Part shown: piece after piece, positions 23,842 to 27,990 of the stretch
Numbering within the stretch: position 1 is the first letter of the stretch
Layout: each line of letters opens with the position of its first letter
NCBI GenBank assembly: GCA_021295155.1
Contig: JAJTJC010000036.1
Location: 1,271,690 to 1,335,689, forward strand
Length of the DNA: 64,000 bases
Reading direction: 5' to 3'
From: Flavobacteriaceae bacterium D16
GTDB taxonomy: Bacteria; Bacteroidota; Bacteroidia; Flavobacteriales; Flavobacteriaceae
Program-made: the position numbers and the translations under genes
The notes under the pieces: generated by a model
What the model saw: only the letters and a program-made list of their open reading frames with translations
The model's database searches: none
Told to the model about the DNA's origin: nothing

Positions 23842-23871
23842 TTTGATTTTTACAGATAATAATTACCTTAG
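23842..23871 (+). promoter_or_regulatory. Promoter of the aromatic amino acid operon
   Basis: TTTG (23842-23845), 18 bases, TACCTTAG (23864-23871; one mismatch to TAnnTTTG). The start predicted near 23878 is 12 bases before the leader peptide ATG, which matches an attenuator layout. Confidence 0.55.
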
Positions 23872-23889
23872 TCCCTTCAAATAAGAAAT

Positions 23890-23961
23890 ATGGCACGCAA
23901 TTATTTCTGGAACAGGTTTTATTTTTACTTCTTTGGACAAAGAGGTACGGGACAGTTCTAG
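23890..23961 (+). CDS. Aromatic leader peptide (attenuator peptide)
   Basis: A 23-codon frame with ATG and TAG. The peptide is MARNYFWNRFYFYFF followed by GQRGTGQF: six Phe, three Tyr and one Trp in 23 residues, clustered at residues 5-15. It is placed 12 bases after the predicted transcription start, and its end overlaps the first strand of a mutually exclusive RNA pairing that ends in a T-run terminator (23945-24016). The genes behind it make Phe and Tyr. This is the classical arrangement of pheL-type leaders, where ribosome stalling at Phe/Tyr codons permits read-through. No homologue was compared; the assignment rests on composition, position and RNA pairing. Confidence 0.85.
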   Translation: MARNYFWNRFYFYFFGQRGTGQF

Positions 23962-24016
23962 AACATTGCTAACAATATAGTAAAATAGGGTCCCGTAACG
24001 TACGGGACTTTTTTTT
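23945..24016 (+). terminator. Attenuator: competing antiterminator and terminator
   Basis: Three 8-base strands occur. TACGGGAC (23946-23953, inside the last leader codons) and TACGGGAC (24001-24008) can each pair perfectly with GTCCCGTA (23990-23997). The downstream pairing makes an 8-bp stem with a 3-base loop followed by eight T, an intrinsic terminator. The upstream pairing would prevent it. A ribosome finishing the leader at 23961 would cover the upstream strand and favour termination; one stalled in the aromatic codons would leave it free. I do not see an obvious 1:2 hairpin, so behaviour without translation is unclear. Confidence 0.85.
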
Positions 24017-24035
24017 GATATAAATCGCAACAATT

Positions 24036-24863
24036 TTGGCCTTACAAATAGCCATTCAGGGGATTCAGGGTTCTAACCACCATCAGGTGGCCCGGGAATA
24101 TTTTAATGAAGACATTACCCTGGTAGAATGTCTTACTTTCCATGAACTGGTAGACCAGCTAATTCAGGGGAAGGCAGACAAGGGAGTAATGGCGATAGAG
24201 AACTCTATAGCGGGCTCTATTATTCCCAACTATGCCCTGGTCTATCAAAACAATTTGCACATTATTGGTGAGCATTACCTAAATATTCATCACCACCTGA
24301 TGAGCCTTCCGGGACAATCTCTGAATGATATAAGAGAAGTAAGATCTCACCCTATGGCGCTGTTGCAATGCCGGGAATATCTGAAGACCAAAAACCACAT
24401 TAAAATGGTAGAGGACTTTGATACCGCAGAAACAGCACGTCAGATCCAGCAAAATCAATGGAAGGGAATCGCAGCGATAGCGCCTGGAGTTGCCGCCGAT
24501 CTGTACGGATTGGAAATTTTGGCTTCTGACATTCAGACCATAAAGAACAATGCAACCCGTTTCATCGTCATTAAAACAAAGAATAAGGTACTACCTGAAG
24601 AGGAGATCAACAAGGCATCGGTCCGTTTTATAACAGACCACAAAAGGGGAAGTTTGGCTGCTGTACTTAATGTAATGAGCGATTGCAACCTTAACATGAC
24701 CAAAATACAATCCTTGCCTATTATCGAAACTCCCTGGAAGTATGCCTTTTTTGTGGATGTTACCTTTGATAAATACGAACATTTTACCAAAGCGAAATCC
24801 CTTTTGGACATCATGTCTGAGGATTTTAAAGTATTGGGAGAATATAAAAATGCACGTTTGTGA
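24036..24863 (+). CDS. pheA: Prephenate dehydratase
   Basis: 275 residues from a TTG start that directly opens the family N-terminus MALQIAIQGIQGSNHH. Converts prephenate to phenylpyruvate, the committed step to Phe. The catalytic domain contains KGVMAIENSIAGSI near residue 48, HHLMSLPG near 89, and the conserved Thr-Arg-Phe in NNATRFIVIKT near 170. The C-terminal ACT domain (residues ~195-275) has ESLP-like IQSLPII and is the usual Phe-feedback site. It is the first gene after the attenuator and overlaps the aminotransferase start (GTGA). Confidence 0.95.
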   Translation: MALQIAIQGIQGSNHHQVAREYFNEDITLVECLTFHELVDQLIQGKADKGVMAIENSIAGSIIPNYALVYQNNLHIIGEHYLNIHHHLMSLPGQSLNDIREVRSHPMALLQCREYLKTKNHIKMVEDFDTAETARQIQQNQWKGIAAIAPGVAADLYGLEILASDIQTIKNNATRFIVIKTKNKVLPEEEINKASVRFITDHKRGSLAAVLNVMSDCNLNMTKIQSLPIIETPWKYAFFVDVTFDKYEHFTKAKSLLDIMSEDFKVLGEYKNARL

Positions 24864-26011
24864 TACGCACTGCAGATCGTTTACATACCGTTGAAGAATA
24901 CTATTTTTCACGGAAACTCAGGGAAGTAAGGCAGCTAATGGCTGAAGGGAAGCCCATTATCAATATGGGTATTGGGAGTCCAGACCTGTCTCCTTCCGAT
25001 GCTGTAATAGCTTCCTTGCAAGAATCGGTAGGCGAGGCGGGAGCCCATCAGTACCAGAGCTATCAGGGCTTGCCTGAACTCCGTGAAACCATATCCCGTT
25101 TTTACATGGATAAGTTTGGGGTGAATGCAGATCCCGCAAGTGAAATTCTTCCTCTGATGGGGTCTAAGGAAGGCATTATGCATATTAGTATGGCTTTTCT
25201 GAATGAAGGTGATGAGGTACTGATCCCCAATCCCGGATATCCCACCTACAGCGCAGTAACCAAGCTGGTTGGCGCTAAACCCAGACAATATTCTCTTTCT
25301 GAAGAAGAAGGTTGGTTCCCGGACCTGAATCATTTAGAACAAGATGATCTGGAAAAGGTCAAACTTATGTGGGTGAGTTATCCCCATATGCCTACTGGAG
25401 CAACAGCAACACCAGAGCAATTATCTGCGCTGGTGGCATTCGCCCAAAGAAATGATATTCTTTTGGTTAACGACAATCCTTACAGCTTTGTACTGAGCAA
25501 GAACCCGATAAGTTTATTATCTATTCCCGGTGCCGGATCTGTAGCATTAGAATTGAATTCCCTAAGCAAAACTTTTAACATGGCAGGCTGGCGAGTAGGC
25601 ATGGTCCTTGGAAATGCTCATTATTTAAAAGCGATATTAAAGGTAAAGAGTAATATGGATTCGGGGATGTTCTACGGTATCCAAAAAGGAGCAATTGCCG
25701 CTTTGAAAAGCGGTACGGAATGGTTTGAAAAACTGGACGAAATATATCAGAAAAGACGAGCGCTTATGTTTGAGGTAGCTGATCTTTTGGGCTGCCACTA
25801 CGATAAGAAAGCCGTGGGTATGTTTGTTTGGTGTAAGCTGCCTACAAATGCCCCGGATGCTGAATCCTTCATTGACGACCTGCTCTATCAAAAAGATGTT
25901 TTTATCGCTCCAGGAACTATTTTTGGCAGCAATGGACAGGGCTATATTCGCTTGTCCCTTTGTGTAAAAGAAGAAAAAATAAAAGAAGCTATAGCCAGAC
26001 TTAAGAATTAA
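24860..26011 (+). CDS. Class I/II PLP aminotransferase (probable aromatic/aspartate type)
   Basis: 383 residues from a GTG that overlaps the pheA stop. Fold-type I aminotransferase: INMGIGSPDLSPSD near residue 35, NPGYPTYSAV near 126, NDNPYSFVLS near 200, and the PLP lysine in NSLSKTFNMAGWRVG near residue 237. Placed between pheA and tyrA, it most likely performs the last transamination to Phe and Tyr, although relatives act on aspartate, LL-diaminopimelate or prephenate, and substrate preference is not visible. No regulator site within the gene was noted. Confidence 0.9.
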   Translation: MIRTADRLHTVEEYYFSRKLREVRQLMAEGKPIINMGIGSPDLSPSDAVIASLQESVGEAGAHQYQSYQGLPELRETISRFYMDKFGVNADPASEILPLMGSKEGIMHISMAFLNEGDEVLIPNPGYPTYSAVTKLVGAKPRQYSLSEEEGWFPDLNHLEQDDLEKVKLMWVSYPHMPTGATATPEQLSALVAFAQRNDILLVNDNPYSFVLSKNPISLLSIPGAGSVALELNSLSKTFNMAGWRVGMVLGNAHYLKAILKVKSNMDSGMFYGIQKGAIAALKSGTEWFEKLDEIYQKRRALMFEVADLLGCHYDKKAVGMFVWCKLPTNAPDAESFIDDLLYQKDVFIAPGTIFGSNGQGYIRLSLCVKEEKIKEAIARLKN

Positions 26012-26036: not shown

Positions 26037-26897
26037 ATGAATGTATTTATAATAGGAATAGGATTAATAGGCGGTTCTCTGGCAAGGGATATCCGTAAGT
26101 ATTACCCTGAGGCCAGACTTTACGGGATAGACCTTGATCCGGCTCACCTCAAAGTAGCCCTGGAATTAGGACTTATTGACGAGGCCTCGGATTACGATGG
26201 GCTTTCCGATGCTGATCTGGTTATCCTCACTATTCCTGTTGATGCCATGGTTAATGAGTTACCCCTGGTGCTGGAGCATGTAGGTGAAGAAACCCTGGTG
26301 CTGGACGCCGGTTCTACGAAGGCCGAAATCTGCCAGTTTGTGGCGGATCATCCCAAAAGACGAAACTATTTGGCGTGTCACCCAATTGCGGGAACGGAGT
26401 TCTCAGGACCCTCTGCAGCTTTGGAGGGGCTTTTTGATGGGAAGACCAATATTATTTGTGAAGTTGAGAAAACGGCATTTAAGTTACAGGAATATGGCCT
26501 GGAAATCTTTAGAAAGCTGGGGATGCGGATCCGGTATATGAACCCGGAGGCCCATGACAAGCATATAGCTTATGTATCTCACCTATCCCACATCAGTTCC
26601 TTTATGTTGGGTAAAACAGTTATTGAAAAGGAAAAGAATGAACGTGATATCTTTGACATGGCGGGGAGTGGATTTGAGAGCACTGTAAGACTGGCCAAGA
26701 GTTCACCAGCCATGTGGACCCCAATATTTGAACAAAACAAAGTAAACGTAATAGAAACACTGGAAGAGTACATCCAAAATCTGCAACAATTCAGGCAGAA
26801 GCTTGTGGATAATGACTTTCAGGGCATTTTTAAGGAAATGGACGATACCAACCGGATAAAAGCAATCCTGGATGGAATCCCACTAAACAAAAAATAA
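26037..26897 (+). CDS. tyrA: Prephenate dehydrogenase
   Basis: 286 residues. The Rossmann NAD-binding motif GIGLIGGSLARDI (residues ~7-19) begins the protein and fixes the start. The catalytic His and neighbours lie in LACHPIAGTEFSGP near residue 118, and the helical C-terminal half contains HDKHIAYVSHLSH. Oxidatively decarboxylates prephenate to hydroxyphenylpyruvate toward Tyr. No ACT or chorismate mutase domain is attached; the mutase is fused to DAHP synthase in the next gene. It is 25 bases after the aminotransferase gene and 10 bases before the next one, inside the attenuated operon. Confidence 0.95.
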   Translation: MNVFIIGIGLIGGSLARDIRKYYPEARLYGIDLDPAHLKVALELGLIDEASDYDGLSDADLVILTIPVDAMVNELPLVLEHVGEETLVLDAGSTKAEICQFVADHPKRRNYLACHPIAGTEFSGPSAALEGLFDGKTNIICEVEKTAFKLQEYGLEIFRKLGMRIRYMNPEAHDKHIAYVSHLSHISSFMLGKTVIEKEKNERDIFDMAGSGFESTVRLAKSSPAMWTPIFEQNKVNVIETLEEYIQNLQQFRQKLVDNDFQGIFKEMDDTNRIKAILDGIPLNKK

Positions 26898-26907
26898 AAT
26901 CAAAACA

Positions 26908-27990
26908 ATGGAAAATACAAAACAACTCAAATCCTGGCTGGACGATATGGAACTTCCACATCCTTTGGTCATTGCAGGACCCTGTAGTGCTGAAACTGAA
27001 GAACAGGTCCTCAAAATTGCTCATGAGTTAAAAGATACAGATGTAAATTATTACCGGGCTGGTATCTGGAAGCCGCGTACCCGTCCCGGAAATTTTGAAG
27101 GGGTTGGCGCAATTGGCCTCAAATGGCTCCAGAAAGTCAAGAAAGAAACCGGTCTCAAGACGGCTACCGAAGTAGCCAATAAGGCGCATGTAGACCTTGC
27201 TCTGGAACACGATATAGACCTCCTCTGGATAGGTGCCCGTTCTACAGTGAGCCCATTCATAGTGCAGGAAATAGCAGATGCCCTGAAGGGAACTGATAAA
27301 GTGGTTCTGGTTAAAAACCCGGTTAATCCCGATTTGTCACTTTGGTTGGGGGCGGTAGAGCGCTTGCATAAAGCCGATATCAATAAACTGGGTGTAATAC
27401 ACAGAGGTTTTTCCTCCTATAGGAAAACCAAGTATAGAAACATACCGGAATGGCAGCTGGCTATTGAATTGCAAACCAGATTCCCTGATTTACCCCTGAT
27501 AAACGACCCTTCGCATATCTGTGGTAAGCGGGATCTTATCTTTGACGTATCCCAAACGGCTCTGGATTTGAATTATGATGGCCTAATGATAGAAACCCAT
27601 ATAGACCCCGATAATGCATGGAGTGATGCTGCCCAGCAAGTTACTCCTAAAGCACTTGTTCAGATTATGGAAGACCTTAAGATAAGAAAGGTGACCGATC
27701 AGGAAGCCGAATACAGAAATAAGCTTGGAAACTTAAGAGCACAAATCGACGTGATTGACAACCAGCTCCTTGATATACTTGGAAAACGGATGGAAGTTTC
27801 CGATGAGATCGGACAGTTGAAGAAGCAAAGGAATGTAGCCGTGTTGCAAACCAATCGCTGGAACGCCATTTTAGGTAAAATGATCCTTGAGGGGGAAACC
27901 AAAGGCCTGAGTGAAGAGTTTGTACTTCGTATGTTCAAGGCCATCCACCAGGAATCTATCAATCACCAGGAAAAGATTATTAACGCCTGA
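26908..27990 (+). CDS. Bifunctional DAHP synthase / chorismate mutase
   Basis: 360 residues. The N-terminal ~265 residues are a KDO8P/DAHP synthase-type TIM barrel: IAGPCSAETEE near residue 22, YRAGIWKPRTRPGNFEG near 50, DLLWIGARST, and the metal region NDPSHICGKRD near 200. The C-terminal ~95 residues are an AroQ-type chorismate mutase: LGNLRAQIDVIDNQLLDILG near 274, with RMEVSDEIGQLKK following. The protein combines the first step of the shikimate pathway with the chorismate-to-prephenate step, which lets prephenate regulate entry. It ends the operon, with a terminator after it. Confidence 0.95.
   Translation: MENTKQLKSWLDDMELPHPLVIAGPCSAETEEQVLKIAHELKDTDVNYYRAGIWKPRTRPGNFEGVGAIGLKWLQKVKKETGLKTATEVANKAHVDLALEHDIDLLWIGARSTVSPFIVQEIADALKGTDKVVLVKNPVNPDLSLWLGAVERLHKADINKLGVIHRGFSSYRKTKYRNIPEWQLAIELQTRFPDLPLINDPSHICGKRDLIFDVSQTALDLNYDGLMIETHIDPDNAWSDAAQQVTPKALVQIMEDLKIRKVTDQEAEYRNKLGNLRAQIDVIDNQLLDILGKRMEVSDEIGQLKKQRNVAVLQTNRWNAILGKMILEGETKGLSEEFVLRMFKAIHQESINHQEKIINA

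Follow-up and report, generated by a model that had tools for sequence, protein, structure and literature searches.

The window, by which we mean the whole 64 kb stretch of DNA that was analysed, contains a four-gene operon preceded by a short leader region (Table 1). An earlier sequence-only reading had assigned the four genes to phenylalanine and tyrosine synthesis, and profile matches together with conserved gene order now identify them as pheA, aat, tyrA and aroG/CM; the aat product is probably a Phe/Tyr transaminase. The order pheA-aat-tyrA-aroG/CM is kept in 76 of 80 relatives. The leader region comprises a predicted promoter, a short open reading frame (ORF) whose predicted translation contains a run of codons for the amino acids of the operon, and a set of complementary RNA strands. 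Strands 3 and 4 form an intrinsic terminator before the first gene, while strands 2 and 3 form an antiterminator that competes for strand 3.

Table 1. Features of the leader region and the operon behind it (positions in the window)
Feature	Position	Strand	Description	Basis
Predicted promoter	23842..23871	+	TTTG (-33) at 23842-23845; TACCTTAG (-7, TAnnTTTG type) at 23864-23871	Sequence
Leader ORF MARNYFWNRFYFYFFGQRGTGQF	23890..23961	+	ATG at 23890, TAG at 23959-23961; 23 codons plus stop; regulatory Phe/Tyr codons 5-15	
Strand 1	23897..23913	+	GCAAT at 23897-23901 and TTCTGGAAC at 23905-23913; within leader codons 3-8; pairs with 23955-23969	
Strand 2 (TACGGGAC)	23946..23953	+	Leader codons 19-22; antiterminator partner of strand 3	
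3′ partner of strand 1	23955..23969	+	GTTCTAGAA at 23955-23963 and ATTGC at 23965-23969; overlaps the leader stop codon	
Strand 3 (GTCCCGTA)	23990..23997	+	Common to antiterminator and terminator	
Strand 4 (TACGGGAC) and U-tract	24001..24016	+	Strand at 24001-24008, then eight T at 24009-24016; intrinsic terminator	
pheA	24036..24863	+	Prephenate dehydratase, TTG start	NCBIfam NF008865, E 1e-58, under curated cut-off; relatives arranged alike
aat	24860..26011	+	PLP-dependent aminotransferase	Related families only, no curated cut-off met; operon position
tyrA	26037..26897	+	Prephenate dehydrogenase	NF006307, 377 bits, above cut-off
aroG/CM	26908..27990	+	DAHP synthase-chorismate mutase fusion	Profile search; gene order in relatives

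Anatomy of the leader region

Direct reading of the sequence reproduces exactly the 23-codon frame, the strand coordinates and the eight T that had been described before. The aromatic content differs slightly from that description, which placed ten aromatic residues at codons 5-15: nine are found there (five Phe, three Tyr and one Trp), and the tenth is Phe 23. A fourth strand had been overlooked, since TTCTGGAAC is complementary to GTTCTAGAA, a pairing lengthened by GCAAT with ATTGC. Judged by its boxes, the predicted promoter is of the Bacteroidota type, with the consensus TAnnTTTG. The gap between TTTG and TACCTTAG is 18 nt, and the distance from the latter box to the leader ATG is also 18 nt. 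Among relatives, a TAnnTT(A/T)G box occurs at most 50 nt from the leader ATG in 98 of 104 cases, versus 8.5% in shuffles, and its commonest position is likewise 18 nt 5′ of the ATG.

Conservation of the leader element

To describe the distribution of the element, 110 pheA loci were sampled in addition to the window itself (111 in total), and the 450 nt upstream of each were scanned by script. The conserved aromatic short frame that the sequence-only reading had expected upstream of pheA is present, as an aromatic-rich ATG leader ORF, in 108 of the 111 loci; in the nearest genera (Maribacter, Zobellia, Eudoraea, Muriicola, Flagellimonas and others) the typical leader is MTKQYFWNGFYFYFFFKRGTGLL. 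Two of the three loci missed by the script are matched by a covariance model, R1, built from 56 sequences: in the genome of L029 the match adjoins pheA (G050:C37:117321), and in that of L019 it lies about 520 nt upstream of the gene (G015:C21:149102). The roughly 520 nt between attenuator and pheA in L019 hold repeated units with GGCGGGATC-type motifs (G015:C21:149233-149754). L023 is the sole missed locus in which neither the script nor the covariance model detected a leader element.

R1 matches are found in 219 of 249 sampled Flavobacteriaceae genomes, representing 207 of 235 genera. Outside the family, 44 of 148 genomes in the order sample and 55 of 296 in the phylum sample are matched; the weakest matches in these wider samples, near E 0.01, may be other terminators. 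The covariance model returned no further convincing copy in the genome that carries the window, the next match having E = 0.01. When upstream regions were read directly, a mixed Phe/Tyr leader was seen 5′ of pheA in about 20 of the 24 sampled genomes that belong to the same class outside the family, with MNNSRAYFYGFYFYFTSKSRD, MILSNAYWNGYFYFYSESRD and MIIAKAYRFTYFYFYFYFSKKPGMLLLMSK as examples; in a few of these leaders the script detected no clear terminator. Beyond the class, the 15 loci sampled from the phylum (L199-L213) all lack a Phe/Tyr leader 5′ of pheA, and L206, L207 and L209 show only weak ORFs with 5-6 aromatic residues. Four genomes of the phylum sample with a class-like PheA (L151, L183, L186 and L191) do carry the mixed leader.

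ORFs of this composition are rare. In the 64 kb window, counting both strands, the leader is the only ORF of 12-45 codons with at least eight aromatic residues in 11 codons, and the 1.06 Mb of strand sequence surrounding the sampled loci holds hardly any ORFs of that aromatic density apart from the leader. The aromatic leader and its hairpins are not a chance occurrence.

Terminator and antiterminator stems

Folding gives -14.4 kcal/mol for the terminator hairpin (z -4.0) and -16.4 kcal/mol for the 2:3 hairpin (z -3.5). Compensatory changes in both alternative stems, the comparison suggested by the sequence-only reading, are present. For the 3:4 stem, all 392 of 392 cells are paired in the 56 sequences, and five of the seven pairs show two-sided changes, with 15 two-sided changed cells observed versus 2.4 in shuffles. 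For the 2:3 stem, at least six of seven positions pair in all 103 distinct elements; 365 of 392 pairs are formed versus 322 after exchange of strand 3 between genomes, and none of 10000 permutations scored as high. The strand-2 search is biased toward pairing because the best match was chosen, with shuffled cores reaching 5.3 of 7 positions versus the 6.5 observed. On a MAFFT alignment the 2:3 signal is weaker (83.9% versus 82.0% shuffled) because strand 2 is displaced by one base in several genera, a limit of the alignment, and on a one-clade alignment the difference is small (91.5% versus 90.4%) because the strands vary little in that clade. Strands 2, 3 and 4 covary, as illustrated by the triples CGGGACT/AGTCCCG/CGGGACT, CAGGACT/AGTCCTG/CAGGACT and CGAGGCT/AGTCTCG/CGAGACT: a change of strand 3 to AGTCCTG, AGTCTCG or AGTTCCG tends to be accompanied by matching changes in strands 2 and 4.

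The 1:2 stem, a candidate pause or protector hairpin, joins leader codons 3-9 to the sequence surrounding the leader stop. Its mean duplex energy among relatives is -12.7 kcal/mol versus -9.5 with the strands exchanged (the lowest of 300 permutations being -10.2), and its pairing reaches 85.7% versus 35-56% for slid versions. Moreover, the third bases of codons 7 and 23 are associated as pairing requires (Fisher p = 2e-6, a value that ignores relatedness). Support for this hairpin is weaker than for the 2:3 and 3:4 stems; its presence makes the element a full four-strand attenuator. In L096, L030 and L020 the stop codon has shifted before or into strand 2 with the RNA strands retained, and in L020, where the ORF ends earlier, the strand-1 partner TATGTAT nevertheless persists as non-coding sequence. 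These shifts are natural evidence that the C-terminal codons are retained for pairing.

Ribosome position and folding

The spacing between the aromatic codons and strand 2 is nearly constant. Among the 103 elements, 71 have a strand 2 core that starts 13 nt past the first base of the final aromatic codon, and in 91 the distance is 12-14 nt. Toeprints usually place the front edge of the ribosome at about this distance when a codon occupies the A site. We modelled folding of a transcript ending where strand 3 has just emerged, holding the ribosome footprint unpaired and averaging over the 103 elements. The modelled antiterminator probability is 0.97-0.99 with the ribosome at the aromatic codons, 0.87 at the last aromatic codon, 0.20 at the next codon and 0.00 at the stop codon. 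When the footprint edge is varied from +10 to +14, the switch moves by about one codon and remains no more than about two codons away from the last aromatic one. In silico, a stalled ribosome leaves strand 2 free and a ribosome at the stop codon covers it; geometry and masked folding taken together therefore indicate that strand 2 is accessible while the ribosome waits on any of the Phe or Tyr codons and hidden once it moves on.

Equilibrium folding of the complete RNA with a masked ribosome favours the terminator at every ribosome position, and the switch must therefore be kinetic, decided during transcription. Known attenuators also decide during transcription. The equilibrium calculation was dropped as the wrong test, since strand 3 is transcribed earlier than strand 4. 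In the untranslated RNA the model gives an antiterminator probability of 0.58 on average and 0.26 in the window, so that the 1:2 stem protects only partly.

Amino acids probably sensed by the leader

Codons 10-16 are almost exclusively Phe or Tyr, with Phe/Tyr exchanges dominating there and one-base changes from Phe codons to Leu, Ile, Ser or Cys nearly absent; this pattern implies selection on the residue class and not just on U-richness. All 108 leaders have at least two Tyr codons, and Tyr at codons 5, 11 and 13 is kept in 63-72 of 81. The per-leader means are 6.3 Phe and 3.0 Tyr, and the last regulatory codon is nearly always Phe. In many relatives Tyr or Phe takes the place of the single Trp codon, and Trp is absent from 43 of the 108 leaders. 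The earlier proposal that the leader might sense Phe, Tyr and Trp at once is thus retained for Phe and Tyr, while Trp sensing, its codon not being conserved, is rejected. On these codon patterns, sensing of Phe plus Tyr is well supported as a prediction.

The leaders of the genome G059 (same order, 83% complete) contain Phe and no Tyr. They belong to two tandem attenuators 5′ of pheA (L140 and L216, G059:C25:18770-19034), upstream of an operon that reads pheA-aat-aroG/CM; tyrA was not detected anywhere in this 83% complete genome. As a single case, Phe-only leaders without tyrA would fit the dual-sensing prediction. In the case of family f17 (L217 and L218, in G388 and G495), pheA-aroG/CM is followed by EPSP synthase-like and chorismate synthase-like genes. 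This operon lacks aat and tyrA, yet has a mixed Phe/Tyr leader, and no convincing tyrA was found genome-wide in three f17 genomes, though their leaders retain Tyr codons. No strict rule tying Tyr codons in the leader to tyrA in the operon is claimed: G059 is the one case in its favour, and the f17 leaders keep Tyr without an adjacent tyrA.

Other leaders in the same genome

The genome that carries the window contains two more predicted attenuators of this design. Just before trpE at 27827 (L176, G000:C32), a putative Trp attenuator consists of the leader MKRNTANNWWWTNDRIMS with its stop codon, carrying three Trp codons, and a GGCTTGTC...GACAAGCC terminator. Just before hisG at 212839 (L175, G000:C22), a putative His attenuator has a GTG-start leader, MKRNNTHHHFYTCTQAR with its stop codon, three His codons and a CCCGTTTGAG...CTCAAACGGG terminator. 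Leaders with terminators for Trp and His suggest that leader-peptide attenuation is probably a general mode in this genome. Before ilvD (L177, G000:C22) there is a possible Ile-rich short frame with a TTG start (KNSTIIIISLAWLCVQ...), for which no clear terminator was seen.

Proposed mechanism and alternative explanations

The element is, with high probability, a ribosome-mediated transcription attenuator responding to the supply of charged tRNA-Phe and tRNA-Tyr. This extends the sequence-only reading of a Phe/Tyr attenuator and draws on the conserved mixed leader, the compensatory stems, the fixed geometry between ribosome and strand 2, and the matching operon. RNA polymerase would start shortly 5′ of the leader ATG, and strands 1-4 would be made during translation of the leader. 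Scarcity of either charged tRNA would hold up the ribosome when a Phe or Tyr codon occupies the A site; it would then cover or have passed strand 1, its front edge just short of strand 2. Strand 2 could then pair with the emerging strand 3, blocking the terminator, and the operon would be read. If both charged tRNAs are plentiful, the ribosome would reach the stop codon and cover strand 2, leaving strand 3 to pair with strand 4; this pairing would end transcription at about 24016 and give an RNA of about 140 nt. In an untranslated leader, 1:2 pairing would partly sequester strand 2 and favour termination. Such a mechanism would entail expression of the leader, ribosome waiting, conditional read-through and close coupling of ribosome and polymerase. 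It seems likely, with less confidence than the attenuator itself, that one leader acts as an OR gate for Phe and Tyr across much of the class, which would imply close ribosome-polymerase coupling in Bacteroidota.

The nearest alternative keeps the attenuator and supposes that it senses Phe alone in practice, the Tyr codons being near-neutral neighbours. The excess of Phe over Tyr and the Phe at the last regulatory codon speak for it, but no leader among the 108 is free of Tyr, the three Tyr positions are kept, mixed leaders recur in most sampled genomes of the same class, and the one Phe-only case, G059, has no detectable tyrA, as dual sensing predicts. We consider Phe-only sensing unlikely. 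A nascent-peptide arrest, in which the aromatic peptide would stall the ribosome in response to a small-molecule cue and not to codon starvation, is considerably less probable still. Although the peptide is well conserved inside the family, it diverges between genera outside the aromatic run, its C-terminus tracks RNA pairing, and what is kept is mainly residue class; stop codons move in L096, L030 and L020 while strand 2 stays put, and the Trp and His leaders of the same genome share the design.

To two further explanations we assign hardly any probability. A T-box or riboswitch, in which structured RNA itself binds tRNA or a metabolite, would account for a conditional terminator before an amino-acid operon, but Rfam searches at gathering score yielded no family for this leader or for those of relatives, a search at a lax threshold gave only weak, unrelated matches, and the conservation pattern is that of an ORF with short strands. 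The hydrophobic, aromatic character of the peptide would suit an ordinary small membrane-protein gene followed by an unrelated terminator; against this, strands 2, 3 and 4 covary, the ribosome geometry is fixed, and the element stands just 5′ of pheA in nearly every sampled genome.

An attenuator for Phe and Tyr would offer a mechanism for the control of their synthesis in Bacteroidota, a phylum in which little is known about amino-acid regulation. It would also define an RNA family absent from Rfam and add to hundreds of genomes a short ORF that is probably missing from their annotation. A functional element would mean that the leading ribosome stays close behind RNA polymerase in these bacteria.

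Comparison with known attenuators

In the same family, a 2021 transcriptome study of Flavobacterium psychrophilum reported strong clues to leader-peptide attenuation 5′ of amino-acid biosynthesis operons; its main text contains no named Phe operon or comparative analysis of one (PMC9723704). Short ORFs reminiscent of leader peptides have also been described in Bacteroides (PMC7366714). The mechanism proposed here is textbook; its two-amino-acid Phe/Tyr version in Bacteroidota appears undescribed, leaving aside two surveys from 2004 and 2010. These surveys, by Vitreschak (2004, FEMS Microbiol Lett 234:357), whose abstract is said to mention Bacteroidetes/Chlorobi, and by Lopatovskaya (2010, Mol Biol 44:128), reportedly predicted leader-peptide attenuators of amino-acid operons across bacteria.

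By its anatomy, the element belongs with the classical leader-peptide attenuators such as pheL, trpL and hisL; its unusual parts are the mixed Phe/Tyr signal and the wide conservation of that signal. In E. coli, the regulatory codons of pheL are all Phe, and the pheA gene behind it stands alone and is bifunctional. Like pheL, the element described here combines a leader rich in codons for the product, 2:3 and 3:4 stems and a U-tract terminator 5′ of pheA. Unlike pheL, its leader mixes Phe and Tyr, its operon makes both, its promoter is of the Bacteroidota type, and no obvious Shine-Dalgarno-like motif precedes the leader ATG; Bacteroidota largely do without Shine-Dalgarno sequences. Homology with the E. 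coli pheL leader family was considered and set aside: the leader is mixed Phe/Tyr, and the leader peptide, too short for ancestry to be decidable, has no NCBIfam match. The responses of E. coli thrL to Thr and Ile, and of ilvL to Leu, Val and Ile, provide a parallel in which one leader reports several amino acids, although the amino acids and the lineage differ.
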